From Loxodes magnus (taxonomy: Eukaryota > Ciliophora > Karyorelictea > Loxodida > Loxodidae): a stretch of 64,000 nucleotides of DNA. The notes under the pieces are model-generated. The model was given only the letters and a program-made list of their open reading frames with translations. It made no database searches and was not told where the DNA came from. A program made the translations under genes and the position numbers. The stretch covers positions 1-64,000 of the forward strand of contig CAMPDV010002095.1 of assembly GCA_946699065.1 (NCBI GenBank). Reading direction: 5' to 3'. Every line of letters starts with the position of its first letter. The first letter of the stretch is position 1. Below are positions 1 through 62,819 of this stretch, in pieces.

Positions 1-732
1 TTTATATGTGGTAGGCTGCCACTAATAGATATCTTCATTCATCGGCAAAATTCTATATTTAAGAATTCCATTTTCCTATATTCAAAGCTAATTATGTGTT
101 CTCTATGTTCTTAGTTCTTCTCTTGTCTTTACTTTTTCTAAAGCTCAGTATTTTCATTGAACATGATAATTTACTTAAATACCAACATTTTGTATTCTAG
201 TTTTTCTTTATCCTTTTTTGATTATTTTTTTTAGTTATTCTATTCTCTTTTACAAATTTAATTCAATCTAATTATCTTGTTTCAAATCTTGATCAATTGA
301 TTTTACTTTTTGTTTTCTATAATCATGTTTTATTATTGAATAAATATCGAATGTGATTATTTTAATAGTTACTTTTATTTTACTAAATCATTTTAAATTA
401 ACTATCGACGAGGTATTTATATTTGTTTCATTGATGCTCAATGTTATTCATTATTTTCCTGATTTTCTCCCTTCATTTTAAATTATTTCTTCATTCTTTT
501 AGATTATATTTTTCATTTGGTTAAGTTTATTATAGAATTTCCAATCAGCTAAATTTTTAGGTTCTTTTATTTCAATAGATCCGATAATAACTTTACTTTC
601 AGATGAAGAGTTTGATTCCTCATGAAGCTTCTGATTTTTCAACATTTCTTTCGCTTCTTTATCTTTAAATTTCTAAATTAGATTTTAGAAGAATTTATAT
701 TACTCCATTTAGCTTATAATTTCAAATCTCAT
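1..732 (-). CDS. ORF1-like coiled-coil protein, 3' end cut by window
   Basis: Read on the minus strand with TAA/TAG=Gln and TGA=Trp, the frame starts MRFEIISQMEQYKFF and runs through a Ser-rich block (NSSSESKVIIG) into Lys/Gln-rich coiled coil. The block matches SSSSSKDNVMVG at 8036-8833 and SSSSSEGKVMVG at 61411, so this is one protein family. Where relatives have a CCHC zinc knuckle, this copy has only the remnant KCWYLSKLSC, and that lies in another frame. The knuckle Cys and His look lost and the frame broken. The C-terminal module starts as QWQPTTYK at the window edge. A ~97% similar copy lies at 62820-63603. Probable role by homology: RNA-binding ORF1 (Gag-like) protein of a non-LTR retroelement. 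This copy is probably decaying. Confidence 0.5.
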
Positions 733-7469: not shown

Positions 7470-7835
7470 ATACCTAAGCTTTCACCATGAAGTTTACACT
7501 AAATTGCCCTTTAATTTGTGCATAGGTGATTTCCTAGTTATCAGCTTTTCTTAAATCAAGGACTATCATGAGTATTGAATGAATCTCCATGTGCTCAAAC
7601 TCCAATTTCTTAACAAGGCCGAATAATCGGACCGAAGAAAGATGTTAGATACTAAGAGAGCATTCTGATCTCGGCCCTATTGAAGACAAGACTCTTAAAG
7701 GAATGCTAGAACTGTAGAAGACTTCAGAAAAAAGAATTTACTTTAAAAATCTTTATTAAAGAGCTGCGCGCCATTAAGGAGTAACGCACTCTCTTTTCTT
7801 ATTTATTTATTTATTATTAACTACTCTTTTATTTA
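7470..7835 (+). mobile_element. 5'-truncated LINE 3' end (ORF2 C-terminus + hairpin)
   Basis: One frame reads GYLSFHHEVYTKLPFNLCIG and continues to FWSRP. After a one-base slip it reads PIEDKTLKGMLELQK ... LYQRAARHQGVTHSL. The same peptides occur in the tail at 15700-16040 (RSRPIEDKN, LYQRAAYHWDVT). The nucleotides close with gagctgcg ... cgcactc, a 7-bp stem with one bulge, followed by TTATTTATTTATTT. It is a dead-on-arrival insertion of a LINE subfamily distinct from the full element at 18275. The copy in block D is 45505-45865. Confidence 0.65.
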
Positions 7836-8035
7836 TATATATTTATATCAAATTATTGAAATCTAAAAAATAGAATATTTTATAAATAGTGAACATTTTA
7901 AGATGAGAGAAAACCTAAAATTTATATTTTAGTAATTCTAAAATTAAATAAAATAAATAGATTTCTACATTTAAAAAGAGATTAAGATTCATATTAATTA
8001 TTTATAAACTAAATGTAAAAAAGAGTTTACCATTC

Positions 8036-8833
8036 TCTAGGATTTCAACCAGGTACTTGCTGCCATTTTCTTAACGAGGATAGATACAATGACCTTCTTG
8101 ATTAAGTGGTAGGTACCCACTGTTGATTCTCCGTCTATCTAGCAAATTTTTTTTTTCTTATAAATTCCTTTTGATGTAATTCAAATATTTTTTTTAAGTT
8201 TGTGTTCTGTTTTGTTCTTTTTCGTTCAGTTTTTTTCAGGTTATGCATTTCCTTAATAAATAAAACTTGATTTGCAGTATTCTCATTGTTTAAATTCTTA
8301 TCTCGATTAATTTTTTATAAATATCTTGTTTTCTATCTTTTCTAATCTTTTTATTATATTCTGATCTTAAATTTCCAATTATGAGATTTCTTCTTTTTTT
8401 ATTTAAGTTGGAATTTTTTCTAATTCCATTATTTGATTATTGGGTAAATTTGATTAAGATTATCTTCATAATTATTCTTCTGTTATTAATTGATTTTATA
8501 TTAGTTATTTTCTTAAGATTGTTAATTCATTATCCTGAAAATCAATACTATCATAAGTTCTCTTATTTATATGCTTTGGTTATATATGGTTTCTTTGTAT
8601 CAGGAAATTTATTTTTTCATTTGCTCGACTTAATTTTAGAGTTTTTAATATTGGTCATTTTTTTATTCTTCTACTTATTATATTCCAACCATCACATTAT
8701 CTTTGGAAGAAGAACTGGATTCTGATTTAGTAATCTACTTTTATTTTTATTTGCCCGCCTTTCTTTTGGCTTTTCTATTTTAGTTTCTAGAAAGGCAAAT
8801 CAACTATTCCGCTTTTACCGCGCAATTTTCCAT
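8036..8833 (-). CDS. ORF1-like coiled-coil protein
   Basis: The minus-strand frame opens MENCAVKAEQLICL, then a basic run, then SESSSSSKDNVMVG and a coiled coil (YNQSIQIRELMIV) matching YNLGEKIRELM at 61411. It ends in the family C-terminal module (SGYLPLNQEG, YLVEILENGK). No CCHC knuckle is visible, so the middle may be deleted or replaced by Lys/Asn-rich sequence. In block D the first codons carry two one-base deletions, and translation would have to begin at a later ATG. Likely an RNA-binding retroelement protein on its own, since no ORF2 follows on this strand. The start is chosen as the first ATG in the conserved frame; the stop is uncertain. Confidence 0.6.
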
Positions 8834-11170: not shown

Positions 11171-11191
11171 GTATTATTATATATATATAAA

Positions 11192-12148
11192 ATGGCTTCT
11201 AAGAAATAGCAGAACTTTGAACAAAACATTTAAACAGGAAAATTCTCTAAAAAATAAAAAAACGAAATAATTACAATGAGTGAAAGTGAGAAATATGATT
11301 GATGACGAACATAAACCACTTGGAAATCCAGAACTAAAAAACTTCTGACACAAACTCAAATAGAAATATTATCTAAGTCATTAAAAGAGTTTATGTTTAA
11401 AAATAGATACCTCACTGATAAAGTAGAAAAATTAGAAAAACTAATAACGTCTTCACTTGAGAAACAATATTAATAATCATAAGAAATAGAAAACAAACTG
11501 GAACAAAGAATTCTTTAATTTTAATAATAAATTCAGGTAACGCCATTTTCGTTTTAACAGAATTAATCAGATCCTATGGAAATAGAAAATGAAGCCTCAA
11601 ATTAAAATAAACAGTAAACGTTTATTTAAAATAAGTAGTAAATTTAAATTAAATAAGTCTTACAGGAATAATATTTTAAAAGAAGAATAAAATGCTACGT
11701 GTGCAATAAATAACATCAATGAAAATACTGCTACTAACTAAGCGAAATTTAAAGAAAGAATAAATAAGATATTTTTAGAAAACTATTTAGGATATATCCA
11801 ACATAAAGCGGAAAAATTTATAGACAAAATTCTTTAATTCAAATCTTAATCCTTGGAGAAATAATTAGGAACGCTACATGCAAGATGAAGACTATTCAGA
11901 ATATTAAAGGATGGTGCGCTAATGAAGTGCTACACCGCCTAACTAAGCCTAGTAGAAATTCAAGACAAATTAATGGAGACAAGCTGATAGAATAGGTCAG
12001 ATGGCTGACTAATAAGGCTTTAACAAAGCTTTTTTCTTTTTAACTTTAACTTTTATATAAAAAAATTAAAAATATTAAAAGCTTCTATTTTTACAAATAA
12101 CTAATTCTTATCGAAATCATAAGTCAAATTGATTACTTAGTAATGTGA
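11192..12148 (+). CDS. ORF1-like protein with CCHC zinc knuckle
   Basis: Starts MASKKQQNFEQNIQTG; about 318 codons to a TGA. A coiled coil (KEFMFKNRYLTDKVEKLEK) and a Gln-rich stretch lead to DPMEIENE and the zinc knuckle CYVCNKQHQWKYC (CX2CX3HX4C, with a TGA-coded Trp). The block after it (FRKLFRIYPTQSGKIYRQ) matches TWRQLTRLYVTPQGVFK at 16766-17566. CCHC knuckles bind single-stranded nucleic acid, so an ORF1/Gag-type role is inferred. Compared with block D, this copy lost two bases after KYDW and one base ~40 bases later, scrambling about 14 residues but restoring the frame; D reads YDWYDEHQPLGNPELKK. The last ~35 codons lie in AT-rich sequence and may not be real. Confidence 0.7.
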
Positions 12149-15699: not shown

Positions 15700-16040
15700 T
15701 ATATATATAAATAAATAGGGAGGAGCAATTCTCCAACTGAAATTGATTTAAACTCTGGTATCAGGAAATATCCCATAGATGAAAAACCAGCTGATAGAAG
15801 AGAAGATAAGATCGAAGAGGCATCAAGTAGCATTAATGATGAAAGATACTGGATACTAAGGTCTTTTAGGGTAGCATTTAGATCGCGGCCTATAGAAGAC
15901 AAAAATCACACGGGAAGACTATCACTGTGGAAGACTTCAACAAAGGAATTTTTTAACTTTAAAGATCTTTATTAAAGAGCTGCGTACCATTGAGATGTTA
16001 CGCCCTCTATATTCTCATTTATTTATTATTTATTTATCTC
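15700..16040 (+). mobile_element. 5'-truncated LINE tail inserted in spacer
   Basis: One frame without any TGA reads SPTEIDLNSGIRKYPIDEKP ... SINDERYWILRSFRVAFRSRP ... FFNFKDLYQRAAYHWDVTP. This is a LINE C-terminus related to the tail at 7470. It ends with the 3' hairpin (gagctgcgtacc ... ttacgccctc) and a TTTATTTATT tail. The inverted block C (38540-38600) has the uninterrupted site, tgttattat joined directly to ctcaaat, which proves a discrete insertion. Block D (53694-54035) has the same insertion. Confidence 0.75.
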
Positions 16041-16719
16041 AAATAACGAAAATTATATTAAAACCATGCTAAATTTCAATCTTTTTAACTTGCTTAAAAA
16101 TTTCATAAAATCACAAAAAAGGCATAATATTTGTAAATAATATCAGATAGAAATCATAGAATTAAAAGTATTTAAATTAAAAAATTAATTATTTCTCTAA
16201 CTATATTCTTGTTTATATTTTTATTTAAAAGTTGTTTACTTTTGTTTCTACTGTCTAAATCTTAAAAAAATATGAAGTTTAATTAAATCCTTAGAATTAA
16301 AAATATAAATAATTTAATAGGATAAAAGACGTTAATTTTTATAACGATATAAGTTAGTTGATCAAATTCATTATTTATTTAACCTAGTGATATTTTTTTA
16401 TAATTTGCCTATTTATTTTAATTTATATTTTCTTTACACTTTACAGGAAATTTTTGTTATTTAATTGAATATCTGTAGGATGTTATTTTGTATTCTCCCT
16501 CTCTTCAAAGAAAAATGCAATTTCAGTATAATTTGTTTTACTCTTTCAAGTATAAATGAAATATTCAACTAAATAATATTATTTTATTTTATCTTTCTTG
16601 CATTTTTTATACTTAAATCTATCTTATGAATGGGCTATTCTAAAATAAACCAATGTTCATTCTCAAAGATTTAATTTAAAAATATTAGAATTTTTAGTAA
16701 AATCTGAATTTTCTTTCAG
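16041..16719. other. AT-rich spacer
   Basis: No gene seen. The sequence recurs at 54036-54713 and, inverted, at 37690-38570. Confidence 0.55.
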
Positions 16720-16730
16720 TTTAAAATCTT

Positions 16731-16754
16731 ATATATATATATATATATATATAG
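16731..16754. repeat. (TA)n tail of the retroposon
   Basis: About eleven to twelve AT units at the 3' end of the minus-strand element, directly against the target-site duplication. Confidence 0.9.
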
Positions 16755-16765
16755 TAAACTAAAAG

Positions 16766-17566
16766 TCAAAAAAAGTTTGCGTTCCCTGGAATCTAAACCA
16801 GGTTCTCGCTGCCAGTTTTTTAACGTGGTGGAAACCACGACCAAGTTTTTTAAGTGGGAGGTAACCACTATGATAATCTTCTTGTTCCGTTGGAAATCTT
16901 CTTCTTAAATACTCCTTATGGAGTTACGTATAGTCTTGTAAGTTATCTTCACGTCTTTTGATCTTCCTTTCTCTTTAGTTACTTAAAGCTTTGGCAAGTC
17001 TTCGGTAAATGGTTATTTGAATGGCAGAACCAGCATCTTCTATATTTGGTGATTTAAGGCTTGAATTCTGGATATAAGTGGCTCTCTATCTTTTTTATTC
17101 TAGTTATTAGATTCTATTCTTATTTTTATTTTTATTCTTATTAATTCTATTAGTTCTATGTTTTTTATTCTTATTCAATGTCCATTCTGTCAACTTTGTT
17201 AGATCTAGATTAGGATTATAGTCAGAGTTGTTCTTTAGTCACTACTTGACTTTGTATCAGTTGATTCCTTAAACAGTTTGTTTCCTAATTAAGTTCTTCA
17301 ATTGTATTTAGGAGTTCCCTTATCTTTTCCGCGAGATTAAATGTTACCTCATCCTGGTTTTAGAAATTTTTCTTCATAAGTCAAATTTGATTGCTTAATG
17401 ATTCGATTGTATCAGATTCCTGCTCCTTAGTATTCCCTTCAAGGCGCTTTCCTTTTACCGATGGAGGAGAGTCAGGGTCGGTAAGTTCTTTTATTTGATG
17501 TTCTATTTGCTTTTGTGCAAGCTTTCTGGCTTTTTTTGCTTCAATTTTCTACTGCTTGCTTAACAT
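16766..17566 (-). CDS. intact ORF1 protein with CCHC zinc knuckle (266 aa)
   Basis: ATG to TGA in one frame, 267 codons. Order: basic N-terminus MLSKQQKIEAKKARKLAQK; Pro/Ser linker LTDPDSPPSVKGK; coiled coil (FNLAEKIRELLNTIEEL, then VVTKEQLW); the motif RMDIE; Gln-rich stretch; zinc knuckle CWFCHSNNHLPKTC (CX2CX4HX4C) at about residues 180-193; conserved TWRQLTRLYVTPQG; and the C-terminal module QWLPPTQ ... ENLVQIPGNANFF. Closest relative in the window: 61411-62473, which shares every block. By family knowledge a single-stranded nucleic-acid-binding chaperone of a non-LTR element. The absence of frame damage, in a window where most copies are broken, suggests recent insertion. Confidence 0.85.
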
Positions 17567-17591
17567 CTTTTTTTTTATCTTTAAAATCTTA

Positions 17592-18274
17592 AATAAATGG
17601 AATTTCTTATAATGTCAACTTATACAAATAGATTCAGTAGTATAATAAGTATTTGCTTTATTAGTTAAAACAAAAGCTAAAATTTAATCTTCCTGTTTCT
17701 TTACTTTCTTATTTCTATATATCAAATTATTTAATTTATGTAATAAACTATTTTACACCAATAAAAGTTAAAGTTACTTATAAACCAATTATCCTTATTT
17801 TTATACTAATTTAGCAAATTTATTCCTAAAGCTTTATTATTGCTAGATCATATTTTAATTGATCTAATATAAAATAAAATGTAGAAATAATGTAACATTT
17901 TAATATTAAGCAACACTTAACTGAACAACTAAAGAAAATAATTAGGATTTTATTAATCGAAATCAAAGGTTTAATATAGTAAATTTATAAAATAAAGATT
18001 TGCTCATAAAACTATCTTAATTGAATACTTTTGAAATAAATACAAAATATAAGAAATTACACTAAAATTTAGTATTAAAGTTTTTTCTTCAGATATAAGT
18101 AAAATGCTAAATAATTAGCAATTCTTATTATAAAATAAATATAAAAAAATTAGTAAATTAGCGAATAAGCTAATTAGTTCTAAAACTAATTAAAAAGTGT
18201 AAGTTAAAAAATTGTAATATTGTAATATTATAATATTATGATAATTAAATTTATCAAACCTTTATAATATCTTT
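17592..18274. other. AT-rich spacer
   Basis: No gene seen. Repeated at 54726-55407 and partly, inverted, around 37480-37690. Confidence 0.55.
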
Positions 18275-19134
18275 ATGTGTAAGAAAAAGGAAAAAACCCG
18301 AGAATCTAAATCTTAAATTCTAACCTTAAAGATTAATCTTAAGACCCAGTTAATTAACAAGAACCAAGAATTAAAAAAAGATAAATCTACTCCTGTTAAG
18401 GATTGGGAAATACGGAATTTCCTAGCAAACTGAAAAAGCTTGAGAAACCCCACGAGCAAGATATTTAGCTTTTTACATTAATTGAGAAAATGAATACCGA
18501 AATATAGATCCTGAAGGCGGAAAACTTGAATCTTCGGCTTCTATTGTAAGATAGAAAAAAGGTAGATAAAGATTTGGTAAATAAAGTTTAGTTTTAAATT
18601 GAAGCCTTAACTTCTTAATTTGAACTATTAGAAAAAAACCTAAATGCAAATCAATAGAAAATTAAAGAAGAAATTCGATTACCAATTAAAAAAAACTAAC
18701 CTTAAACAGAAAAGATGGAAATTGAAAAAATGTAAACAGAATAAAAATTTTTATTCAAGCCCTTAATAAAGCGTTGCTATTGTTGTCAAAAGTCTGGAAA
18801 TTTTTTGGAGGTAATGTCCGAAGTGAAGAAGAGTGCTTGAGCAGCACCGTAAAGAATTTGGAACATCGAGGAGGCTATATTGTAACTACTTTGGAGGTAT
18901 TTACAGAAAGAAGCTGATATTAGATAATTCAATGTGACACTAATCAAACAGGATCTTGGTAATTAATAGTAACAGAATAAATAGCTTTAAAAGGACAACA
19001 ATGATCTTAGAATTTGTTTAGAGAAGCTGGAGAAAAATTACAAGAAGATGGAAGAACAATTCTATGAGCTTATTGAAGAGAAAAAAGAATTATCTCAGTT
19101 TGAAATTGATTCAGATGAAGACATGTACAGTTGA
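18275..19134 (+). CDS. LINE ORF1 protein with degenerate zinc knuckle
   Basis: Starts MCKKKEKTRESKSQILTLK. After a frame change near 18465 (blocks A and D differ there) comes a coiled coil (IEKMNTEIQILKAENLNLR, QFQIEALTSQFELLEKN), then KMEIEKMQTEQ and RCYCCQKSGNFLE. That last block is a knuckle in which the expected His is Asn and the last Cys is missing. In a shifted frame a match to the family block follows (RRLYCNYFGGIYRKKL). A second coil and an acidic end, FEIDSDEDMYS-TGA, are shared with block D, after which the two copies diverge, marking TGA as the real stop. It precedes ORF2 by ~450 bases in the same orientation. Confidence 0.65.
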
Positions 19135-19583
19135 ATATTGAATATAAAAACTTTTATTGCCTTTAATTTGAGGAAATATTTCCTCTAATTAAAGATGACC
19201 CTAACCCTTATATTAATTAAAATTTATCAAACCTTTAAAAATATTTAACGTTATTAAATTGACTAAAATTAGATAATAATAGACTTAATTAAAAGCTAAA
19301 ATGATTAGAGGATTTTTATAATTGAAATCTTTATCAAAATGAAATTTAAATAATATAAAAAGAATATTAATTATTATTTCCAAAATTCTATTAATTATTA
19401 AAAGATAAACTTATTTATCATTTTCAAAATACCAAAGACTTCATATATTAAGTTATAAAATTTAATCTTATATGAAACTTATTTATTTATATCTGTTAAA
19501 TTATTTTTATATCATTTTAGAGTATTTAGCTTTAATTATAAAATATATAGCCTATAAAATTAAATACTTTTTATATAATTATT

Positions 19584-22500
19584 ATATGTTAAATGGCTGG
19601 CTTCAAGGAGGGTTTTTACCATCTCCTCAGAGTAGAAGAGAAAACCTGAAGCTTTCTCTTTAGCTTAGCTTTAAATGACCTACTCTTTTTTAGCTAAGTT
19701 CGATCTTCAGAAATTGATTATCTAAAATCTCCTAAATATACGAAAAGAAAATAGACAACTATCTATATAGCTAATTTTTAAAGAATAAACTTAATACTTT
19801 ATATATAACATAAATATGCTAAGATAAGAAATAGTAATTCATTGAGATTACTGAGAGCCTGTTTCTAGAAATCTTTCTCACAATGATTCCATGGATATAG
19901 AGTTATCAATGCAATCAGCAAAAGGAAATAGAATAAAAAAAAGAAAAATAATAAAATGCAGATAAAAGTGAGAATTAAGAAGCAAGCTAAACAAACTTTA
20001 ATTAAAATTTATTATGCTAAGAAACTTAAAAAAATGAGCAGTTAATCAGCAAAATTAATAGGAAAAGGAAAAAGAAGAAAAATAGAATAGATAGGAAGAA
20101 GGAAAAGATAGATAAAGGAGAAAGAATTAATAATGAAAATAATATGGAAGCAGAGAATGATAGATAAGAAGAAAAGATGGAGAAGGAAGATGAATCAAAC
20201 AAAAGAAAGTGGTGAAGAGGAAGTAGAGGGGATGGGCGAAAAAGAAGAATAAGAATAAGTTATAAAAATAGGGACAGCAAATGTTAAGGGAGCCCTAAGT
20301 GCTAAAAAGGCACTATTCATTCATATCTCAACAAGTATCCACATAATGGCATTATAAATTATTTAGATTTAAGACTAAAAAGATATGTGTAATATAGCAG
20401 GATATAAAATCTTAATAATGTGGTCAAAAAAGGGAAAGAAATAGCATTTTATATTAGAAACGACATATGTAAGGAGATTAGAGAAATATGGAATGAAGTG
20501 AACCAATTACTCTTTTTGGAGGAGCGAGAGTGAAGGCCATTGAAATAATGAGAAAACTGGCAGTAATAAGAGTATATGCACCTGCTGCAAATGACAACAA
20601 ATAATATGAGACATTCTATAATTTAGTGAATTAATTTAAACTATAAACAATAGAAAGAGGACTTAATATAATGATCATAGGAGATTGAAATGCGCACATA
20701 GAGAAATTATTACTAAAGAAAGTAAACTCAGCTAAAGTTCATGGAACAGAATAATTTAATATGCCTATATCCAATTGAAATAGGTACTTTTGTTTACTAA
20801 AAAAATGAATATAAAATAGATTTCTTTTTAATTGAAGAGATAATGAGAGAAAAGGTGATAAACAACGATTTTTATTGCTCATACGTAATAGGAGACCATA
20901 GACCCGATATAAAATAGTTAAGATTGACAAAGAAATTAGAAAACCATAAAAGTTAGCAAAAATATATTATCTACTATTAAAGAAAGTAGAGTTCTAAGAA
21001 AGGTTTGAAAGATTTATACAAGAAAATGTCTAAGAAGAAGAACCTGATAGCCTAAACGGTACATAGACTTATAAATGATGAAAGAAAAGATATAAGTAGA
21101 AGCTTAAATGGTATGTGGAACAGTTAAAACATAAAAATTTAAGATATATTAATACTCAGAAGCAACAGAATAGTGTTATCAAATTTTCAGAAAATGCAGC
21201 AAGCAATTAAAATAAAGGGTAAAGAATAGCTTTGAAATAAATGAAAATCAATAAAACGAGAAATATAGAGAATATCAAAGAATAAGACAATAATACATTT
21301 AATCAAGAAAAAAAGATAAAAGAAACTAACTTAATATATTTATGGACAGAGTAAATAAAAGATTAAAACAGAGAAGCATAAAGTCGCTGAGACTATTTAA
21401 CTTGATAATAGCAAAACTTTTCCATAACTTGGAAAATTAAAGCTAGGAATTACGATAGACTATAAAAACGAAGAGGGATGAATATAAGAAATATATGCAG
21501 GATGTTTTGCATACGCAGATAACCTAGTTTTAATAAGAGAATGGGAATAATTAGAGGAAGAAATCGAAAATTTAACTTAATGGGCAGAAAAGTGCAAATT
21601 ACAAATAAAACAAAATGAATTATATGAAAAGCAGCAGAAAATAGTAACTGATAAAATATTGGAAACTCTATCGAGATGGGAAATTTAAGGATTGAAAGAG
21701 TAACGACCTTTTAATCTTAGATCATATAATAGAAGAGAACATCAGTTTTGAAAAAAACATGTAGAATAGACTAGAAGCAGCATAAAAGATGTAAATATGA
21801 ATGACAGGAAAAATAGCAATGAATAAGAGATTAACTCCATATAATGCAGGAATAATGATAAAAACTTTCGTAAGCTCTGTTTTCAGTTATGGGACAGAAG
21901 TGATCTCATATTGCGAATAATTTGTAGGAAAATAATGATAGATCAATTAGAAGTAATATAGAGAAGATCTTTACGAATAATCATAAATACCTCTTTTTAA
22001 TTGCAAAATGAGATGTTAGAACGCGGACTATTTTATGAAACTTAAGCGTTACCTATTTGAAAAAACGTTGAGATTAAGAGGCAAATTAATAGGTAACTAA
22101 GAAAAAACAAAAGATGGATTAATGTTTGACCTAAGTAAAGAAGAAAACTTTATATAATTGAATATTTCATGGCAATAAAATTATAATTAAAAATTGAGAA
22201 CAAAGATATATAGATGATGGTAATAATAATTAAAAAGGGAAGAAAAACATTAATCGTACAATTCGAAAAAATAGAGTATAAGTAGAAGATAGAGAAAGAA
22301 TGGAGTAAATGATAGGAACATTAAGTATAGAAAGATTTGATTTGATGAATATGTAGTAGGACCACCCAACTACCTGAGATGCAATAAAAATAGAAAAGAA
22401 GAAATACGCTAAATATTATCATTTAAATAAGAACGAGATGTAATGGGATCAGGTATGTAATAAGATTGCTTAAAAGAAAGACATCTAGTTGTGTAAGTCA

Positions 22501-23120
22501 ATGATTTTTCTGTAATGATTCAAGAGAAAATGAAAGTCATATCATAGAAAAATATTCAGAATGAAAAGAAGGAAGATAAATATGTATTTGAAATCTAAGA
22601 GCAATAGGAGTTGAGAAATAAGGAATGGATTATTTATATAATATGAGGTAATTCCAAATTCGAAAAATTAATTAGAACCTAAGAAGGGTAAAAAAGAGCT
22701 AAAGATGACTTAATAATAAAAGAATATATCAAAGATATACTAGAAAAAAGGAAAAAAAGTATACAAAGAAATTAAAATTTAATAAAAAAAAGAAATAGGA
22801 AAATACTATAGAGCAGAAAAATGATAACTTCTATGAGAGTGAAAAAGCTTGATTAAGAAGAAAATAAATAGAAACGAAAATTAGTAAGATATGTAAGGAA
22901 AAATAAATTAAGCTTGCAATAAAAATCTAATAAAGAAAAGATAGATAGAAAACAGAAGAAAAAGAGATAATGTAGAGGAAAATGATGAAGATACTCAACT
23001 AATAAGAGAAAAATTTCTATTACCTGATGGCTTACTTGAAGAAACGAACATATATTGAGATATGGAAAGAGATGCGCACCAACGAGATGCTATACGCTCT
23101 ATAATCAAGGTTATTATTTA
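19584..23120 (+). pseudogene. LINE ORF2: APE endonuclease - reverse transcriptase - Cys/His finger, damaged
   Basis: The N-terminus (RRVFTISSEQKRKPEA, then DSMDIELSM) matches the region after ORF1 at 62262. Endonuclease: KIGTANVKG, HIMALQ, RVYAPAANDNKQYETFYNL, IGDWNAHIEK (TGA=Trp in the catalytic GDxN block) and VIGDHRPD. RT pieces: FMDRVNKRLKQRSIKSLRLF joins motif A directly to the LFNL block, so the usual ~35 residues between them are missing. The catalytic box is CFAYADNLVLI (YADN for YADD). Thumb: FVSSVFSYGTEVIS, QRRSLRIIINTSFQ. C-terminal finger: CNDSRENESHIIEKY. The final peptide EMRTNEMLYAL overlaps the 3' hairpin. Several frame changes occur. The endonuclease may have been functional; the RT almost certainly is not. 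Confidence 0.8.
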
Positions 23121-23130
23121 TTTATTTAAA

Positions 23131-34489: not shown

Positions 34490-35190
34490 TGAGCCTTGAA
34501 AACCACCAAATCTTGTATCTACATTTTCCTAAACTAAAGGATTGCGCAGGATTTCATTTGTCCACTATCTTTCTTTCGAATATTATTTTATTGAATGCCG
34601 TCCTATCGCTTGAAAAAACTATTTTTGATAAATCTAATCTTGAATTGTAGAACTTCTTCTTATAAATTAATCCGGTTTTTGTTGGTCATAATGCAAATAA
34701 ATCATTCAAAGTTACCTACTTTTTTTGTTATAAATTGCTTATTTCTTTAACACCTTTTGCAATGATGTTAATTTTAGCATAATTAGCAACAGATTTTTCT
34801 TCTTAAACCTTGTTATACTTCGTTTTTCTCTATTTCCATAGGTTTTACATCCTTGCTATCCGATGGTTTTTAAATAATTTCCTATTAGAAATTTTGGTTT
34901 TCCTACAGTCTTTTATTTAATAATAGAATTAAGAAAATTAAAAAATTTGAGGAATTTTATTGATAATTAATAAATTTCTTCTAGTTTTAATCCCATTTGA
35001 TATTAAATATAATGATTGGCTTTCTCTATAGATAAAGATTTAGATTTTATATTAATTAATCTAGTTTCTTTTATAATTGCTCAAATTTTAATCCTCATTA
35101 TTTTAATTCTTATTGTATATTTTATATTATTCAATGCAAAAGAAATTATCAGAATACTAATCAAGTTATTAACTAATAGACTATTTCCTA
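34490..35190 (-). CDS. ORF1-like protein with CCHC zinc knuckle
   Basis: The minus strand reads DVKPMEIEKNEVQQGLRRK and then CQLCQNQHHCKRC, a CX2CX3HX4C knuckle with the same spacing as CYVCNKQHQWKYC at 11192. The MEIE motif lies just before it, as in the rest of the family. Upstream, in other frames, Asn/Gln-rich sequence (STFPSPRKQSISQQLDQ) probably forms the N-terminal part. C-terminal Lys/Gln-rich stretch to about 34490. It is placed head to head with the plus-strand ORF1-like gene at 35195. N-terminus uncertain. Confidence 0.55.
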
Positions 35191-35194
35191 GGAG

Positions 35195-35710
35195 ATGGAA
35201 AGGTAGATTAATCTAATCAAATGGTATTTAAGATAAAATTTGGACCAGAGGATCAGTTTACTGGAGTATGTCAACCTTAACTAACGATTGGATACTATGT
35301 TAAAAGAGCAAAATCATTCCTTATACTTCTAATATTAGAAAATAAAAATATTATGTTGATTCTGCAAAAAATTTGGCCATTAGGTAAATATGTGTGATAG
35401 ACTTAAGGAAAAATAATAGTAAAAAACAGAAAGAGGAATTTAAAATTTATTTAAGAATTATTGCCCACCAAACAGAAATCTGAATTAGAAAAAAGATTCT
35501 GGTCTTATTAAGAAACTCCAAAAATTATGGATATATGAGAAAATTTGAGAAACCACAATATGGCATTTATTACCAGGCTTAAAAAAAGGAAAAAGCAAGC
35601 AATTTATAAGAATTTATGATCCAGAAAATCCAGAAGAAAACGAAATCGAAACCTATTGATTAATACTAACCTCTAAAAACTCTAATTCGTTGTAAACCAA
35701 ATAAAGGTGA
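35195..35710 (+). CDS. intact small ORF1-like protein with CCHC zinc knuckle (171 aa)
   Basis: 172 codons from MERQINLIKWYLRQNLDQR to TKQR-TGA in one frame. Coil at residues ~5-45 (ISLLEYVNLNQRLDTMLKEQ); zinc knuckle CWFCKKFGHQVNMC at about residues 59-72 (CX2CX4HX4C, Trp coded TGA); a basic linker; then GLKKGKSKQFIRIYDPENPE and an acidic end. It lacks the TPxG and LVxIP modules of the longer ORF1 proteins, so it is a compact variant or a host-domesticated relative. The stop TGA is part of GTGACGTCAC. It is separate from any recognisable ORF2. Confidence 0.7.
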
Positions 35711-37200: not shown

Positions 37201-38759
37201 AGATAGGTATAAAAAATAGAGATCATATAATAGCAGAGAGATTGTCATTCACTTCTAAATTCTATTTAGTTTAATTAATTATCTAAAAAACTAAATAAAA
37301 GTAGAATTGAAGTTTATTTTAAATATGCATCTAATAAACCTTTAAACATAAATTAGCTAAAATTATAAGTAACTTTTAGCTTTTATTGATGTAAAGTAGT
37401 TATAGTTTGTTATTACAAAATGGAATAATTTGCTATATAGAAATAAGAAAGGTAAAGAGACAAGAGGATAAAAATTTAGCTTTTTGTTTTAACTAATAAA
37501 GCAAAGATTTACTATACTATTGAATCTATTTGTATAAGTTGTCTTTATAAGAGATTCCATTCATTTAAGATTTGAAACTGAAAGAAGATTCAGATTTTAC
37601 TTAAAATAATAATAAAAATTCTAATATTTTACAATTAAATCTTTGAGAATGAACATTACTTTATTTTAGAATAACATATTATAAGATATATTTAAGTATA
37701 AAAAACACAAGAAAGTTTAAATAAAATAATATAATATTATTTAGTTGAATATTTCATTTATACTTGAAAGAGTAAAACAAATTATACTGAAATTGCATTT
37801 TTCTTTGAAGAGAGGGAGAATACAAAACACAACTTACAGATACTCAATTATATAACGATCAATTTCCTGTAAACTACAAAGAAAACATAAATTAAATTAA
37901 TTAATTTAAAGAAAAAAGATAATAAATGATAACTATAAATTTAAAAATTTAGCAGCAAATTATATTGAAATAAATTGTAATTTTAAATGATAACTGGAAG
38001 TATTAAAAAGAAATTAGAATAAATGATCAAAGTTAATTAAAAAATATTATTTTACATTAAAAGTAAAAAAATATCACTAAAAAGGAATAAAATATAATAT
38101 TAAAAATTAAGAAAAATTCAAATAAGCAAGTAAAATAATTTTAAATGATAATTGTTTGAATATAAAGATGTAGAAGTTAATATTAGTTATCCAGCAATTG
38201 AATAAATCAACTATGCAAATTATAAAAAAAAATCACTAGGTTAAATAAATAATGAAATTGATTAACTATCTTATATCGTTATTAAAAATAATGTCTTTTA
38301 TCGTATTAAATTATTTATATTTTTAATTCTAATGTTTTCATACAATTTAATAATTTTAATGATTTAGACAGTAGAAACAAAAGTAACCAACTTTTATAAA
38401 AATATAAACAAGAATATAGTTAGAGAAATAATTTCTTTTTTAATTTAAATATTTTTAATTCTATGATTTCTATCAGTCATTTTTTAAACAAATATTTTTA
38501 AAAAAAATTTATTTAAAGAAATTCACAAGAAAATCAAAAAGATCGAAGTTTAGCATGGTTTTAATATAATCTTCTTAATTTGAGATAATAACAATATTTA
38601 ACTTTTACTAATATTTCTTAATTGAAATTTTCTGATTGCTAAGTTGAAATTTTTTAAAACTATTACATTTTAAATAAAAAAATTATGGCAAATTATTTTA
38701 ATTGATATTAATATTATTCATGCTCTATTATTCTAATTTATTAGTAGTATCAGATAAAG

Positions 38760-45865: not shown

Positions 45866-46089
45866 ATATATATTTATATCAAATTATTGAAATCTAAAAA
45901 ATAGAATATTTTATAAATAGTGAACATTTTAAGATGAGAGAAAACCTAAAATTTATATTTTAGTAATTCTAAAATTAAATTAAATAAATAGATTTCTACA
46001 TTTAAAAAGAGATTAAGATTCATATTAATTATTTATAAACTAAATGTAAAAAAGAGTTTACCATTCTCTAGGATTTCAACCAGGTACTT

Positions 46090-46865
46090 GCTGCCATTTT
46101 CTTAACGAGGATAGATACCACGACCTTCTTGATTAAGTGGTAGGTACCCACTGTTGATTCTCCGTCTATCTAGCAAATATTTTTTCTCTTATAAATTCCT
46201 TTTGATGTAATTCAAATATTTTTTTTAAGTTCGTGTTCTGTTTTGTTCTTTTTCGTTAAGTTTTTTCCAGGTTATGCATTTCCTTAATAAATAAAACTTG
46301 ATTTGCAGTATTCTCATTGTTTAAATTCTTATCTCGATTAATTTTTTAAAAATATCTTGTTTTCTATCTTTTCTAATCTTTTTATTATATTCTGATCTTA
46401 AATTTCCATTTATGAGATTTCTTCTTTTTTTATTTAAGTTGGAGTTTTTTCTAATTTCATTATTTGATTATTGGGTAAACTTGATTAAGATTATCTTCAT
46501 AATTATTCTTCTGTTATTAATTGATTTTATATTAGTTATTTTCTTAAGATTGTTAATTCATTATCCTGAAAATCAATACTATCATAAGTTCTCTTATTTA
46601 TATGCTTTGGTTATATATGGTTTCTTCGTATCAGGAAATTTATTTTTTCATTTGCTCAACTTAATTTTAGAGTTTTTAATATGGGTCATTTTTTTATTCT
46701 TCTACTTATTATATTCCAACCATCACATTATCTTTGGAAGAAGAACTGGATTCTGATTTAGTAATCTACTTTTATTTTTATTTGTCCGCCTTTCTTTTGG
46801 CTTTTCTATTTTAGTTTCTGAAAGGCATATCAACTATTCCGTTTTTACCGCGCAATTTTCATTTT
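46090..46865 (-). CDS. ORF1-like coiled-coil protein (copy of 8036-8833)
   Basis: Same protein as in block A (SESSSSSKDNVMVG, YNQSIQIRELMIV). Two single-base deletions at the 5' end remove the first ATG from the frame; MPFRNQNRKAKRK could be used instead. The C-terminal module has a cgtgg in place of cattg. Confidence 0.55.
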
Positions 46866-48339: not shown

Positions 48340-49190
48340 TCTATGCATCTCCTGAAGAAATCAAGAAATAAGGAGCGAGTAGACAATACGAACAGCAACA
48401 GATCTAAGAAACGCTTCTAATAATACAAAAGATGGGTATAAAAAGCTAAAAAGTAACTCAAATCACACTGATCAACGAAGAACAAAGAAAAGTGCTGGAG
48501 TTGTAAGAAGCAATTGCTGTAAGAGAATTCACTATGTCGCAGTATCAAGAGGAACAGACTTAAATTCTGATAGATTTTCAGAGTCTAAAGAGGAAATAAA
48601 AAGGCTCAGGATCGAAAACAGAAACCTACAAGACTTAGATTGCAGATATCTTGAAATGGTAAGAGAGTTTCATGGAGACTTATGTCAGGAACAAAATAGT
48701 GTCTTCAACAAAATAGTCTCAGTAGTAAAATATGTTCGCTCATTAAGTTTAGCTTCAGGATTCCAGATGAAGCAGGTTCTGAAGCTTACTCCCAATGGTT
48801 AGCTGTGTTTTATTAAAAAAATCTCTCCAATGGATATGATTCAAGAAACCAACCAACACAATTTCAGATTTAGAATAAAAAGACCAGGATTCCTAAAATA
48901 AAATGATAAGTTTGTGGAAACAGAATCATAAATACTGATTTGATTTAAAACTATAGAAAATTAATTAATATAGGTGGATAAAGCAGAAATTAAGAAAAAA
49001 AATTTACGTTTAATTAAAAAAAACTATTTTTTAGCCAGTTCTATAAATGTCCAAAGGATAAACGATAAAACATGCAAGAAAGACGGTAGAGGAGTAGCAA
49101 GGGGATTGATTCTGATTAATTCAAATAATTGGTCCTGAGGTCACGAGTTTGAAATTCCTCAAAGATCTCTGAATATTTAAAACTTAAATT
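48340..49190 (+). CDS. Gln-rich coiled-coil ORF1-like protein (copy of 10308)
   Basis: Same two-frame structure as in block A, including the frame change after LIDFQ. Differences are mostly substitutions (FSESKEEIK for FSEFKEEIK). The shared frame change shows that it is not a sequencing slip in one copy. Confidence 0.45.
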
Positions 49191-49215
49191 AGAAGTATTA
49201 TTATATATATATAAA

Positions 49216-50060
49216 ATGGCTTCTAAGAAATAGCAGAACTTTGAACAAAACATTTAAACAGGAAAATTCTCTAAAAAATAAAAAAACGAAATAATTACAA
49301 TGAGTGAAAGTGAGAAATATGATTGATATGACGAACATTAACCACTTGGAAATCCAGAACTAAAAAAACTTCCGACACAAACTCAAATAGAAATATTATC
49401 TAAGTCATTAAAAGAGTTTATGTTTAAAAATAGATACCTCACTGATAAAGTAGAAAAATTAGAAAAACTAATAGCGTCTTTACTTGAGAAACAATATTAA
49501 TAATCATAAGAAATAGAAAAAAAACTGGAACAAAGAATTCTTTAAATTTAATAATAAATTCAGGTAACGCCATTTTCGATTTAACAGAATTAATCAGATC
49601 CTATGGAAATAGAAAATGAAGCCTCAAATTAAAATAAACAGTAAACGTTTATTTAAAATAAGTAGTAAATTTAAATTAAATAAGTGTTACAGGAATAATA
49701 TTTTAAAAGAAGAATAAAATGCTACGTGTGCAATAAATAACAACAATGAAAATACTGCTACTAACTAAGCGAAATTTAAAGAAAGAATAAATAAGATATT
49801 TTTAGAAAACTATTTAGGATATATCCAACATAAAGCGGAAAAATTTATAGACAAAATTCTTTAATTCAAATCTTAATCCTTGGAGAAATAATTAGGAACG
49901 CTACATGCAAGATGAAGACTATTCAGAATATTAAAGGATGGTGCACTAATGAAGTGTTACACCGCCTAACTAAGCCTAGTAGGAATTCAAGACAAACTAA
50001 TGGAGACAAGCTGATAGAATAGGTCAGATGGCTGACTACTAAGGCTTTAACAAAGCTTTT
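49216..50060 (+). CDS. ORF1-like protein with CCHC knuckle, undamaged copy of 11192
   Basis: MASKKQQNFEQNIQTG, then SEKYDWYDEHQPLGNPELKK (the original frame, damaged in block A), coil, DPMEIENE and CYVCNKQQQWKYC-type knuckle: here the His codon cat reads caa, so the metal ligand itself is changed. Then FRKLFRIYPTQSGKIYRQ. The downstream A/T sequence differs from block A in length, so the true stop is unclear. Confidence 0.6.
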
Positions 50061-50371
50061 TTCTTTTTAACTTTAACTTTTAAATAAAAAAATAAAAAAA
50101 TTAAAAAAATTAAAAATTTCAATTTTAACAAATAACTAATTCTTATCGAAATCATAAGTCAATTTATTACTTAGTAATGTGAAAATTGGCGGAAATATTT
50201 AACCCCGAATGTCATTTATAATGTTGGATTCAAATAAAATAAGACTTGTCAATCAGCAAATTTATCTTCTGTCTATAAAAGGAATAAAACATTTTTAAAG
50301 AAAATTAAATGCCTTTGTAAAATAATTTTATAGTTATTTTTATTTTAAATTAAGTATTTTAAATTAATAAA

Positions 50372-53693: not shown

Positions 53694-54035
53694 TATATAT
53701 ATAAATAAATAGGGAGGAGCAATTCTCCAACTGAAACTGATTTAAACTCTGGTATCAGGAAATATCCCATAGATGAAAAACCAGCTGATAGAAGAGAAGA
53801 CAAGATCGAAGAGGCATCAAGTAGCATTAATGATGAAAGATACTGGATACTAAGGTCTTTTAGGGTAGCATTTAGATCGCGGCCTATAGAAGACAAAAAT
53901 CACACGGGAAGACTATCACTGTGGAAGACTTCAACAAAGGAATTTTTTAACTTTAAAGATCTTTATTAAAGAGCTGCGTACCATTGAGATGTTACGCCCT
54001 CTATATTCTCATTTATTTATTATTTATTTATCTCA
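53694..54035 (+). mobile_element. 5'-truncated LINE tail (copy of 15700-16040)
   Basis: Same insertion at the same site as in block A; the empty site is in block C. Confidence 0.75.
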
Positions 54036-55407
54036 AATAACGAAAATTATATTAAAACCATGCTAAACTTCAATCTTTTTAACTTGCTTAAAAATTTCTT
54101 AAAATCACAAAAAAGGCATAATATTTGTAAATAATATCAGATAGAAATCATAGAATTAAAAGTATTTAAATTAAAAAATTAATTATTTCTCTAACTATAT
54201 TCTTGTTTATATTTTTATTTAAAAGTTGGTTACTTTTGTTTCTACTGTCTAAATCTTAAAAAAATATGAAGTTTAATTAAATCCTTAGAATTAAAAATAT
54301 AAATAATTTAATAGGATAAAAGACGTTAATTTTTATAACGATATAAGTTAGTTGATCAAATTCATTATTTATTTAACCTAGTGATATTTTTTTATAATTT
54401 GCCTATTTATTTTAATTTATATTTTCTTTACACTTTACAGGAAATTTTTGTTATTTAATTGAATATCTGTAGGATGTTATTTTGTATTCTCCCTCTCTTC
54501 AAAGAAAAATGCAATTTCAGTATAATTTGTTTTACTCTTTCAAGTATAAATGAAATATTCAACTAAATAATATTATTTTATTTTATCTTTCTTGCATTTT
54601 TTATACTTAAATCTATCTTATGAATGGGCTATTCTAAAATAAAGCAATGTTCATTTTCAAAGATTTAATTTAAAAATATTAGAATTTTGAGTAAAATCTG
54701 AATCTTCTTTCAGTTTAAAATCTTAAATAAATGGAATTTCTTATAATGTCAACTTATACAAATAGATTCAGTAGATAATAAGTATTTGCTTTATTAGTTA
54801 AAACAAAAGCTAAAATTTAATCTTCCTGTTTCTTTACTTTCTTATTTCTATATAGCAAATTATTTAATTTATGTAATAAACTATTTTACACTAATAAAAG
54901 TTAAAGTTACTTATAAACCAATTATCCTTATTTTTATACTAATTTAGCAAATTTATTCCTAAAGCTTTATTATTGCTAGATCATATTTTAATTGATCTAA
55001 TATAAAATAAAATGTAGAAATAATGTAACATTTTAATATTAAGCAACACTTAACTGAACAACTAAAGAAAATAATTAGGATTTTATTAATCGAAATCAAA
55101 GGTTTAATATAGTAAATTTATAAAATAAAGATTTGCTCATAAAACTATCTTAATTGAATACTTTTGAAATAAATACAAAATATAAGAAATTACACTAAAA
55201 TTTAGTATTAAAGTTTTTTCTTCAGATATAAGTAAAATGCTAAATAATTAGCAATTCTTATTATAAAATAAATATAAAAAAATTAGTAAATTAGCGAATA
55301 AGCTAATTAGTTCTAAAACTAATTAAAAAGTGTAAGTTAAAAAATTGTAATATTGTAATATTATAATATTATGATAATTAAATTTATCAAACCTTTATAA
55401 TATCTTT
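54036..55407. other. AT-rich spacer with empty retroposon site
   Basis: No gene. TTTAAAATCTTA at 54714-54725 is the unoccupied target of the ORF1-only retroposon of block A. Confidence 0.7.
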
Positions 55408-56272: not shown

Positions 56273-56713
56273 TATTGAATATAATATTGTCTTTAATTTG
56301 AGGAAATATTTCCTCTAATTAAAGATGACCCTAACCCTTATATTAATTAAAATTTATCAAACCTTTAAAAATATTTAACGTTATTAAATTGACTAAAATT
56401 AGATAATAATAGACTTAATTAAAACCTAAAATGATTAGAGGATTTTTATAATTGAAATCTTTATCAAAATGAAATTTAAATAATATAAAAAGAATATTAA
56501 TTATTATTTCCAAAATTCTATTAATTATTAAAAGATAAACTTATTTATCATTTTCAAAATACCAAAGACTTCATATATTAAGTTATAAAATTTAATCTTA
56601 TATGAAACTTATTTATTTATATCTGTTAAATTATTTTTATATCATTTTAGAGTATTTAGCTTTAATTATAAAATATATAGCCTATAAAATTAAATACTTT
56701 TTATATAATTATT

Positions 56714-59700
56714 ATATGTTAAATGGCTGGCTTCAAGGAGGGTTTTTACCATCTCCTCAGAGTAGAAGAGAAAACCTGAAGCTTTCTCTTTAGCTTAGCT
56801 TTAAATGACCTACTCTTTTTTAGCTAAGTTCGATCTTCAGAAATTGATTATCTAAAATCTCCTAAATATACGAAAAGAAAATAGACAACTATCTATATAG
56901 CTAATTTTTAAAGAATAAACTTAATACTTTATATATAACATAAATATGCTAAGATAAGAAATAGTAATTCATTGAGATTACTGAGAGCCTGCTTCTAGAA
57001 ATCTTTCTCACAATGATTCCATGGATATAGAGTTATCAATGCAATCAGCAAAAGGAAATAGAATAAAAAAAAGAAAAATAATAAAATGCAGATAAAAGTG
57101 AGAATTAAGAAGCAAGCTAAACAAACTTTAATTAAAATTTATTATGCTAAGAAACTTAAAAAAATGAGCAGTTAATCAGCAAAATTAATAGGAAAAGGAA
57201 AAAGAAGAAAAATAGAATAGATAGGAAGAAGGAAAAGATAGATAAAGGAGAAAGAATTAATAATGAAAATAATATGGAAGCAGAGAATGATAGATAAGAA
57301 GAAAAGATGGAGAAGGAAGATGAATCAAACAAAAGAAAGTGGTGAAGATGAAGTAGAGGGGATGGGTGAAAAAGAAGAATAAGAATAAGTTATAAAAATA
57401 GGGACAGCAAATGTTAAGGGAGTCCTAAGTACTAAAAAGGCACTATTCATTCATATCTCAACAAGTATCCACATAATGGCAATATAAGACATTTAGATTT
57501 AAGACTAAAAAGATATGTATAATATAGCAGGATATAAAATCTTAATAATGTGGTCAAAAAAGGGAAAGAAATAGCATTTTATATTAGAAACGACATATGT
57601 AAGGAGATTAGAGAAATATGGAATGAAGTGAACCAATTACTCTTTTTGGAGGAGCGAGAGTGAAGGCCATTGAAATAATGAGAAAACTGGCAGTAATAAG
57701 AGTATATGCACCTGCTGCAAATGACAACAAATAATATGAGACATTCTATAATTTAGTGAATTAATTTAAACTATAAACAATAGAAAGAGGACTTAATATA
57801 ATGATCATAGGAGATTGAAATGCGCACATAGAGAAATTATTACTAAAGAAAGTAAACTCAGCTAAAGTTCATGGAACAGAATAATTTAATATGCCTATAT
57901 CCAATTGAAATAGGTACTTTTGTTTACTAAAAAAATGAATATAAAATAGATTTCTTTTTAATTGAAGAGATAATGAGAGAAAAGGTGATAAACAACGATT
58001 TTTATTGCTCATACGTAATAGGAGACCATAGACCCGATATAAAATAGTTAAGATTGACAAAGAAATTAGAAAACCATAAAAGTTAGCAAAAATATATTAT
58101 CTACTATTAAAGAAAGTAGAGTTCTAAGAAAGGTTTGAAAGATTTATACAAGAAAATGTCTAAGAAGAAGAACCTGATGGCCTAAACGGTACATAGACTT
58201 ATAAATGATGAAAGAAAAGGATATAAGTAGAAGTTTAAATGGAATGTGGAACAGTTAAAACATAAAAATTTAAGATATATTAATACTCAGAAGCAACAGA
58301 ATAGTGTAATAAAATTTTCAGAAAATGCAGCAAGCAATTAAAATAAAGGGTAAAGAATAGCTTTGAAATAAATGAAAATCAATAAAATGAGAAATATAGA
58401 GAATATCAAAGAATAAGACAAGAATACATTTAATCAAGAAAAAAAGATAAAAGAGACTAACTTAATATATTTATGGACAGAGTAAATAAAAGATTAAAAC
58501 AGAGAAGCATAAAGTCGCTGAGACTATTTAACTTGATAATAGCAAAACTTTTCCATAACTTGGAAAATTAAAGCTAGGAATTACAATGGACTATAAAAAA
58601 GAAGAGGGATGAATATAAGAAATATATGCAGGATGTTTTGCATACGTAGATAACCTATCTTTAATAAATAAATAGGAATAATTAGGGAGGGAAATAAAAA
58701 TTTAACCTAATGGGTAGAAAAGTGCAAATTGCGAATAAAACAAAATGAATTATATGAAAAGCAGTAGAAAATAGTAACTGATAAAATATTGGAAATACTA
58801 TCGAGGTGATAAATTTAAGGATTGAAAGAGTAACGATCTTATAATCTTAGATCATATAATAGAAGAGAACATCAGTTTTGAAAAAAACATGTAGAATAGA
58901 CTAGAAGCAGCATAAAAGATGTAAACATGAATGACAGGAAAAATAGCATTGAATAAGAGATTAACTCCATGAAATGCAGGAATAATGATAAAAACTTTTG
59001 TAAGCTTTGTTTTCAGTTATGGGACAGAAGTGATTCCATAATGCGAGTAATTTGAATGAAAATAAATGATGAGCAATTAGAAATAATATAGAGAAGATCT
59101 TTACGAATAATCATAAATACCTCTTTTTAAGTGCAAAATGAGATGTTAGAACACGAACTGTAGTTATTGGAATTTAAGCATTCCTATGAAAAAAAGTTTA
59201 AGAGGCAAATGAATAGGTAACTAAGGAAAAAAAGTAGACGGATTAATGTTCGACCTAAGTAAAGAAGAAAACCTTATATATAAATAATATTGCACTGCAA
59301 TAAAATTAGAATTAAGAATTGGGGACAAAGATATATTTATAGATGATGGTAATGATAATTAAAAAGAGAAGAAAAACAATAATCGTACAATTTGAAAATA
59401 TAGACTATACGAGAAGATAGAGAAAGAATAAAGTAAATGATAGGAATATTACAGCATAGAAAGATTTTATGAATATGTAGTAGGACCACCCAACTATCTG
59501 AGATGCAATAAAAATAGAAAAGAAGAAATTAGCTACATATTTAGAATAATAACGAGGTTTCATTGTCTTGCCGTATTATCATAGCTTCCCGATACGATGA
59601 ACTCTTAATCACTGGATCTAGCCACAGATGATACATAATATGTGTGATCACTCATGATCTTACAGGTATGTAATGGAAACTAGGATTGCTTAAAAGAAAG

Positions 59701-60325
59701 ATACTTAGTTGTGTAAGCCAATGCCCTTCCTGTAATGATTCAAGAGAAAATGAAAGTCATATCATAGAAAAATATTCAGAATGAAAAGAAGGAAGATAAA
59801 TATGTATTTGAAATCTAAGAGCAATAGGAGTTGAGAGATAAAGAATAGATTATTTATATAATATGAGATACGGCTAAATTCGAAAAATTAATTAGAAACT
59901 AAGGAGAATAAAAAAGAGCTGAAGCATACTTAATAATAAAAGATTATATGAAAATACTAGAGAAAAGAAAAATAGGAGGCAAAGAAATAAAAATTGAATA
60001 AAAAAAAGAAATATGAAAATACTATAGAGCATGAAAAGGATAATTTTATGAGTGTATAAAAGATTGATTAAAAAGAAAATAAATAGAAACGAAAATTAGT
60101 AAGATATGTAAGGAAAAATAAATTAACCTTGCAATAAAGATCTAATAAAGCGAAGATAGATAGAAGACAGAAAAAAAAGAGATAATGTAGAGGAAAATGA
60201 TGAAGATACTCAACTAATAAGAGAAAATTTTTATTACCTGATGGCTTACTTGAAGAAAAGGACATATATTGAAATATGGAAAGAGATGCGCACCAACGAG
60301 GTTCTACACGCTCTATAATCAAATT
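56714..60325 (+). pseudogene. LINE ORF2 (copy of 19584), damaged
   Basis: Same endonuclease blocks (IGDWNAHIEK, YAPAANDNK) and the same internal RT deletion. Catalytic box CFAYVDNLSLI, again with Asn in place of the second Asp. More frame damage than in block A after 58600, plus a ~105-base insertion at 59557-59664. The C-terminal finger keeps both first cysteines (CPSCNDSRENESHIIEKY), of which block A has lost one. Confidence 0.75.
59557..59664. other. block-D-specific GC-richer insertion
   Basis: Absent from block A at ~22432. About 45% GC. Possible hairpins: TTCAT with ATGAA plus CGTAT with ATACG (59560-59610), and ATACATA with TATGTGT (59631-59646). Origin unknown; too short for a gene. 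Confidence 0.5.
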
Positions 60326-60345
60326 TATTATTTATTTATTAATTT

Positions 60346-62700: not shown

Positions 62701-62819
62701 TACTTTAATTAACTATTAAAAAAATGTTCAGTTGTAAAAATTACAAATCTATAATAATTGATAATATAAAAATAATAATAATATATTTAAGAGTATAATT
62801 TTTTGCTTTCCCTAGAGTT

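Follow-up and report, generated by a model that had tools for sequence, protein, structure and literature searches.

The 64,000-nucleotide stretch of Loxodes magnus DNA analysed here (the window) carries, on its minus strand and between two 12-bp target-site duplications (TSDs), a compact retroposon of 848 bp that we term E1. Read in its own direction, E1 consists of an A-rich leader of about 13 nt, an ATG, 266 codons followed by a UGA, a short further piece and a (TA)n tail; the strand of the frame (17566-16769), absent from the original prediction, is minus. The assembly comprises 705.7 Mb in 7,843 contigs, the somatic assembly being given as 706 Mbp in the genome paper (PMC11441545), and the G+C content of the window is 22%. 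The window covers roughly a single period, ~62.9 kb, of a large repeat that contains both direct and inverted sub-blocks (1-1129/62873-64000 and 7318-16738/45355-54732).

Table 1. Positions in the window of E1, its parts, its empty sites and related units.
Feature	Positions	Strand	Comment
Target-site duplication, copy 1	16720-16731	.	TTTAAAATCTTA, exact match
Target-site duplication, copy 2	17580-17591	.	TTTAAAATCTTA, exact match
E1, complete unit	16732-17579	-	5' end 17579, 3' end 16732
(TA)n 3' tail of E1	16732-16753	-	
Conserved 3' region with short hairpins	16743-16873	-	common to related families
ORF1-like frame, 266 codons	16769-17566	-	ATG at 17566; UAA/UAG=Q, UGA=W; final UGA 16766-16768; ~45 terminal codons possibly 3' UTR
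Predicted coiled coil, best 42-residue stretch	17282-17407	-	a/d positions 92% hydrophobic (L011 copy)
CX2CX4HX4C zinc-knuckle motif	16994-17035	-	CWFCHSNNHLPKTC
Empty homologous site, block D	54714-54725	.	exact TTTAAAATCTTA
Empty homologous site, inverted block C	37566-37577	-	one mismatch, reads TTTCAAATCTTA
E2, second young ORF1-only family	61425-62250	+	~36% amino acid identity to E1; 1-nt deletion near 5' end of the window copy
E3, older related family, frameshifted copy	46024-46826	-	duplicated with its block at ~7993-8796 (-)
E4, decayed relative that retains the 3' region	62770-63412	-	partly duplicated at 1-684 (-)
F, dispersed family of similar build	11174-12054	+	CX2CX3HX4C by eye; duplicated at ~49188-50106 (+); weak homology to E1
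G, CCHC protein of a diverse genomic family	35105-35698	+	weak homology to E1; provisional unit boundaries

The 12-mer by itself is no evidence of an insertion, since 0.88 exact matches are expected in the window by chance and three occur, namely the two duplication copies and the site in block D. When the E1 flanks are joined without the insert, however, they align to block D (54214-55233) at 99.2% with one gap and to the inverted block C (37903-37363) at 85.7%, with clean junctions at both empty sites, and E1 must therefore have inserted after its block split from both. Together with the exact duplications, these alignments confirm the original prediction of a single-gene retroposon that ends in (TA)n, is flanked by a 12-bp duplication and has two unoccupied sites. 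Contig C1553 carries the same duplication and insert within a 97.4% copy (3,023 aligned bases); as the flanks are included in the match, this represents one event that was duplicated and not a second insertion. The window copy differs from the commonest E1 sequence by 12 substitutions and one in-frame insertion of 6 nt.

Further copies were sought across the genome, where the 40 best-scoring places out of 1,111 first-look candidates comprise the window copy and 39 others, the latter nearly full-length at 97-98% identity and all fetched, in 37 loci. The first-look candidates (1111 for E1, 1916 for E2, 1397 for E3 and 2618 for F) are not copy numbers. These 40 places represent 33 distinct insertions, and all 33 display a TSD of their own of at least 11 bp (range 11-18 bp, median 15), as had been anticipated for independently moved copies; with permuted flanks the rate falls to 2.0% (maximum 6.2%). 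All 40 listed copies end in a (TA)n tail and have their 5' end in common (...GATGTTAAGC, preceded by an A-run). Half of them (20/40) are identical across the ~807-nt ORF region while residing at 18 distinct TSDs, indicating recent movement. Being the best-scoring copies, the sample is biased to young, full-length elements, and 5'-truncated copies may exist.

Relatives of E1 in the window were found by a translated search with UGA read as Trp, and two more, E5 (locus L078) and E6 (locus L020), lie outside it. With composition correction and masking E1 matches E2 at E 8e-41, and composition-corrected matches link E2 to E3 (E 3e-22), E5 (E 1e-16) and E4 (E 1e-10). Besides the window copy, E2 has 39 listed places at 98-99% identity, and the copies fetched carry an (ATT)n tail and their own TSD in 4/4 cases (one with a mismatch; read by eye). 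The E3 list holds 25 places at 93-94%; a further 14, at 98-99%, appear to be copies of the large block of the window itself. Judged by their homology, E1, E2 and E3 are at least three related ORF1-only families, two of them young. The family F has 33 listed places at 95-97%, besides six others that also look like block copies; the E3 and F places suggest that the ~62.9-kb unit has copies on other contigs. For G, 150 protein matches are listed, with identities from 91% down to 35%. Uncorrected blastp had put forward F and G as kin of E1, but the match is weak once corrected (E 3e-5 to 0.06 over nine sequences), and the composition-corrected matches of E1 to F (E 1e-4) and G (E 3e-4) are weak and centre on the knuckle. 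F and G are thus similarly built and only possibly kin of E1.

The protein that E1 appears to encode has a basic N terminus, a predicted coiled-coil stretch, the CX2CX4HX4C knuckle and a conserved TWRQL...TP.G..K stretch. Its AlphaFold model is weak overall (pLDDT 59, pTM 0.25), the exception being a long predicted helix at residues 46-105, mostly at pLDDT 70-88. A Pfam scan gave no family at cut-off for E1, E2, F or G, and no RT family; the G protein gave zf-CCHC_4 at E 2e-4, under the Pfam cut-off. In a profile search of the Protein Data Bank, the E1 linker and knuckle matched a Copia virus-like particle protein at E 0.052, which is not significant. The final ~45 codons, which extend into the 3' hairpin region and have a pN/pS of 0.76 and low model confidence, may be 3' UTR. 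Although Loxodes has no stop codon other than UGA, E2 (L081-L083) lacks one in frame beyond codon 214, and the C terminus of the protein is therefore uncertain; the UGA that ends translation may be codon 204 or 265 in E1, and codon 214 or none in E2.

At the DNA level, the 3' region provides the longest similarity between E1 and E2 (75% over 117 nt), suggesting that the RNA itself may be recognised. Short hairpins and an end of the form GCAAA...TTTAGTTTA are found in E1 to E5. RNAalifold recovers two of the three stems (the first and third; 9 pairs) with no double-sided compensation, and the middle stem, assessed by eye, is kept in E1, E2 and E5 and broken in E3a and E4. The E1 fold is modestly better than chance (z -2.1; 9/200 shuffles equally good). 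Given this modest z and the lack of compensatory changes, the hairpins rest on conservation and not on covariation. A covariance model built from E1 to E5 was run on 321,713 bases from 70 sources, with L001-L009, L018, L023 and L081-L084 left out. Among units absent from its training set, the model recognised L042 at E 4e-8 and L020, weakly, at E 0.014; its matches away from E-type units were a weak one in L047 (E 0.06) and an edge match of 28 positions. We judged the L047 match to lie on the strand opposite the LINE, because that locus gave no plus-strand match to the LINE.

E1 shows features expected of a non-LTR retroposon mobilised by target-primed reverse transcription, namely TSD-bounded units whose duplications vary in length (33/33), a 3' tail of short repeats and empty sites, and it has been amplified recently. 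As predicted, the unit holds no ORF2 or RT, its 848 bp being taken up by an ORF1-like frame and tail; the frame combines a Gag-type coiled coil with a CCHC knuckle and is conserved against E2, and the RT/endonuclease ORF of an autonomous LINE is absent. We propose that E1 is a recently active, non-autonomous, protein-coding non-LTR retroposon mobilised in trans by LINE enzymes, a reading to which we assign a probability of roughly 0.78. In this model, the E1 RNA would encode one Gag-like protein and, behind this frame, contain a 3' end with hairpins and a microsatellite tail, and the protein may coat its own RNA as an oligomer. A LINE reverse transcriptase/endonuclease would then take up the RNA, probably via the hairpins and the TA tail, and insert it at TA-rich sites through target-primed reverse transcription.

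Which LINE could serve as helper was addressed with loci of three types, T1 (L076, L079, L080), T2 (L077) and T3 (L078), in a genome for which about 2,700 RT copies are stated in its description (PMC11441545). T1 is approximately 5.5 kb long, has an ORF1 that is RRM-like by eye apart from its CCHC knuckle, and ends in a hairpin and (ATTT)n tail; T2 has a different 3' hairpin followed by an (AATT)n tail, again read by eye. Both carry an RT, and both ORF1s bear CX2CX4HX4C. Beyond this knuckle, hhalign found no homology of the T1 and T2 ORF1s to E1 (0.2% each). Uncorrected blastp matches in T1 and T2 LINE DNA (E 4e-4 and 7e-5) vanish with composition correction, and a clear blastp match in L076 belongs to an adjoining F unit. 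When tails were compared, those of T1 and T2 matched the E1 to E4 tails no better than shuffles, the E5 tail matched that of T1 weakly (14/300 shuffles as good), and T3 (L078) showed no E-type tail on the LINE strand. The test itself works, since as a positive control it found the T1 tail near 15968-16037 with a z of 16.8. The helper would accordingly be either a LINE outside the sampled types or one whose recognition of E1 is independent of tail homology.

Several further traces of T1 were noted in the window. Stretches with a T1 3' tail (hairpin and ATTT-type repeat) lie at 15968-16037, 53962-54056, 7752-7815 and 2360-2422 and are perhaps T1-dependent SINEs. A partly decayed T1-type LINE, ~82-84% identical to L076 over most of its length, occupies 19570-23128 and 56700-60353, having been duplicated with its block. 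Just upstream of it, 18238-19150 gives a frameshifted CCHC-like reading, by eye possibly another ORF1-only unit. Directly after the E2 tail, 62254-62348 corresponds to approximately the first 95 bp of a T1-like LINE, with no T1 match beyond. Within F, an internal stretch (11902-11933) resembles the T1 tail slightly above chance (2/300 shuffles; one of 14 comparisons).

Two histories of E1 have to be weighed under trans-mobilisation. In the first, Loxodes would harbour a long-lived, self-sustaining Gag-only lineage that since the E1/E2 split has had no RT on a shared RNA and has diversified into several families, of which two or more moved recently. Its own Gag and 3' RNA structure would be under selection; the enzymes would come from LINEs in trans, perhaps with a change of helper when the tails changed between (TTA)n and (TA)n. 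We put this forward tentatively, as a history that is quite conceivable while short of probable. In the second, which we consider plausible but less likely than not, E1 would work in the same manner but be a simple deletion product, a LINE minus ORF2 whose parent would have a matching ORF1 and 3' end and would be, or have been, present outside the sampled LINEs. Such ORF1-only derivatives are documented for HAL1 (PMC5753468) and TRE5-A.2 (PMC5391098), T1 and T2 share the knuckle pattern, and with the sampling covering three types a parent of this kind could have escaped. Against it, the T1 to T3 loci (L076-L080) contain no matching ORF1 outside the adjoining E5 and F units, and no matching tail on the LINE strand. 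Furthermore, at least three homologous ORF1-only families coexist (E1-E3), the two young ones at ~36% amino acid identity, which requires either several parents or one old ORF1-only lineage.

SINEs are non-coding, and E1 could in principle be such an element, its frame open merely because the Loxodes code has no unconditional stop; we regard this as very unlikely. A 5' part derived from a small RNA was not seen, with no tRNA in an ARAGORN scan of the window and no Rfam family exceeding its gathering score within 16600-17700, where a sub-threshold PreQ1 match was taken as chance. The idea does draw on the open state of every frame and on the fact that no DNA similarity between E1 and E2 extends further than that in the hairpin tail. 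As set out in the genome paper, the code (NCBI table 27) reads UAA and UAG as Gln and has UGA as its only stop, UGA also encoding Trp when far enough from the poly-A tail (PMC11441545); the LINE reverse transcriptases of this genome, with up to nine in-frame TGA codons, are consistent with it. With UAA, UAG and UGA all read as sense, all frames are open and the openness of the E1 frame carries no weight. The 266-codon frame described in the original prediction as intact does exist, but its intactness depends on UGA being read as Trp, given three in-frame TGA codons in addition to the final one.

Coding was therefore assessed by comparison between families. In the ORF frame, the E1 and E2 proteins are 36% identical over 275 positions and score 169 bits, against 99 bits for the best other frame pair. 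The pS is 0.71 and the pN 0.40, giving a pN/pS of 0.56 (95% CI 0.47-0.67) that lies under all 200 neutral simulations (mean 1.02, minimum 0.76). Since a protein-guided alignment depresses pN/pS even in wrong frames, the calculation was repeated in all 18 frame pairs, among which the ORF frame has both the lowest pN/pS and the highest identity (0.37; next 0.34), the remaining 17 ranging from 0.66 to 0.94 in pN/pS; with dS close to saturation (2.1), little weight should be put on the exact value. E1 and E2 share four Trp positions, two of which are encoded by TGG in one and by TGA in the other, a switch predicted by UGA=Trp under protein selection. The CCHC motif occurs three times in the window and in none of 20 mononucleotide shuffles, and together with the heptad pattern, the TGG/TGA switching and the frame-specific conservation it argues against a non-coding element. 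The possibility, raised with the original prediction, that ORF1 evolves neutrally is thus not borne out between families. Its proposed dN/dS comparison reveals purifying selection between E1 and E2, whereas within E1 the copies are too alike to be informative: variants present in at least two insertions are 3 synonymous to 2 nonsynonymous and private ones 10 to 27, a pattern suggestive of selection at most.

An amplified processed retrogene, in which the mRNA of a host CCHC protein was copied repeatedly by a LINE, is another highly improbable source of E1. The short 5' leader and single ORF would fit, as would the short 3' UTRs reported for Loxodes mRNAs (PMC11441545). The tails, however, are (TA)n or (ATT)n and not poly(A), the 3' region is conserved between families, and neither E1 nor E2 belongs to a Pfam family at cut-off. 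Most LINE copies in this genome are described as incomplete (PMC11441545), yet the view of E1 as a 5'-truncated copy or 3' fragment of some longer element that had an RT upstream is effectively refuted for the E1 copies examined by a single, TSD-closed 5' end just outside the ATG in 33/33 distinct insertions. The related suggestion that the copies derive from elements with ORF2 upstream fails likewise, as all 40 begin at this same 5' end and are TSD-bounded. None of 160 places of E1, E2, E3 and F lies within 6 kb of any of 150 listed RTs (the best of 3,403 first-look candidates), a weak test given that only 11/160 share a contig with a listed RT; the TSD-closed E1 and E2 units are the stronger argument against a linked RT.

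A set of several diverged ORF1-only families, two of which moved recently and whose protein is conserved, would show that a parasite can profit from keeping nothing but a Gag, and it makes it testable whether a LINE ORF1 serves mainly its own RNA. E-type families may also account for part of the unclassified repeats of L. magnus, given as 757 k copies in the somatic assembly (PMC11441545), such elements staying in the somatic nucleus. Literature searches on ORF1-only elements and on Loxodes and karyorelict SINEs and non-LTR elements showed no description of the E1 family, and the term 'ORF1' does not occur in the main text of the L. magnus genome paper (PMC11441545).

E1 had been considered unusual on the grounds that most LINE parasites are non-coding; this cannot be upheld as stated, since ORF1-only elements are already known in HAL1 and TRE5-A.2. 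To our knowledge, these coding parasites of LINEs are deletion products of one parent. The mammalian HAL1 is, like E1, a non-LTR retroposon with ORF1p only, described as one that 'encodes only ORF1p' (PMC5753468) and as likely mobilised by L1 (PMC4161310). It is nonetheless an L1 derivative with the L1 ORF1, while E1 has no matching LINE among the three types sampled, measures only ~0.83 kb and possesses a microsatellite tail and CCHC knuckle. TRE5-A.2 of Dictyostelium is likewise ORF1-bearing and active; it is reported to lack 'the entire ORF2 sequence', to have an activity similar to that of its parent and apparently to be mobilised by the ORF2 protein of another element (PMC5391098). It differs in deriving from TRE5-A.1 and in targeting tRNA genes, whereas a parent of E1 was not found among the sampled LINEs. 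With LINE-dependent SINEs that carry a LINE-derived tail, E1 shares its shortness, the lack of RT and a 3' hairpin with microsatellite tail, but it codes for a conserved protein and has a tail without a match among the sampled LINEs. The T1 and T2 ORF1s of this same genome have the CX2CX4HX4C knuckle in common with E1, in contrast to which they come with an RT and show no homology past the knuckle. E1 probably works like HAL1 and TRE5-A.2, and the new aspect is that two young families at ~36% protein identity coexist with an older, homologous family that is built alike.
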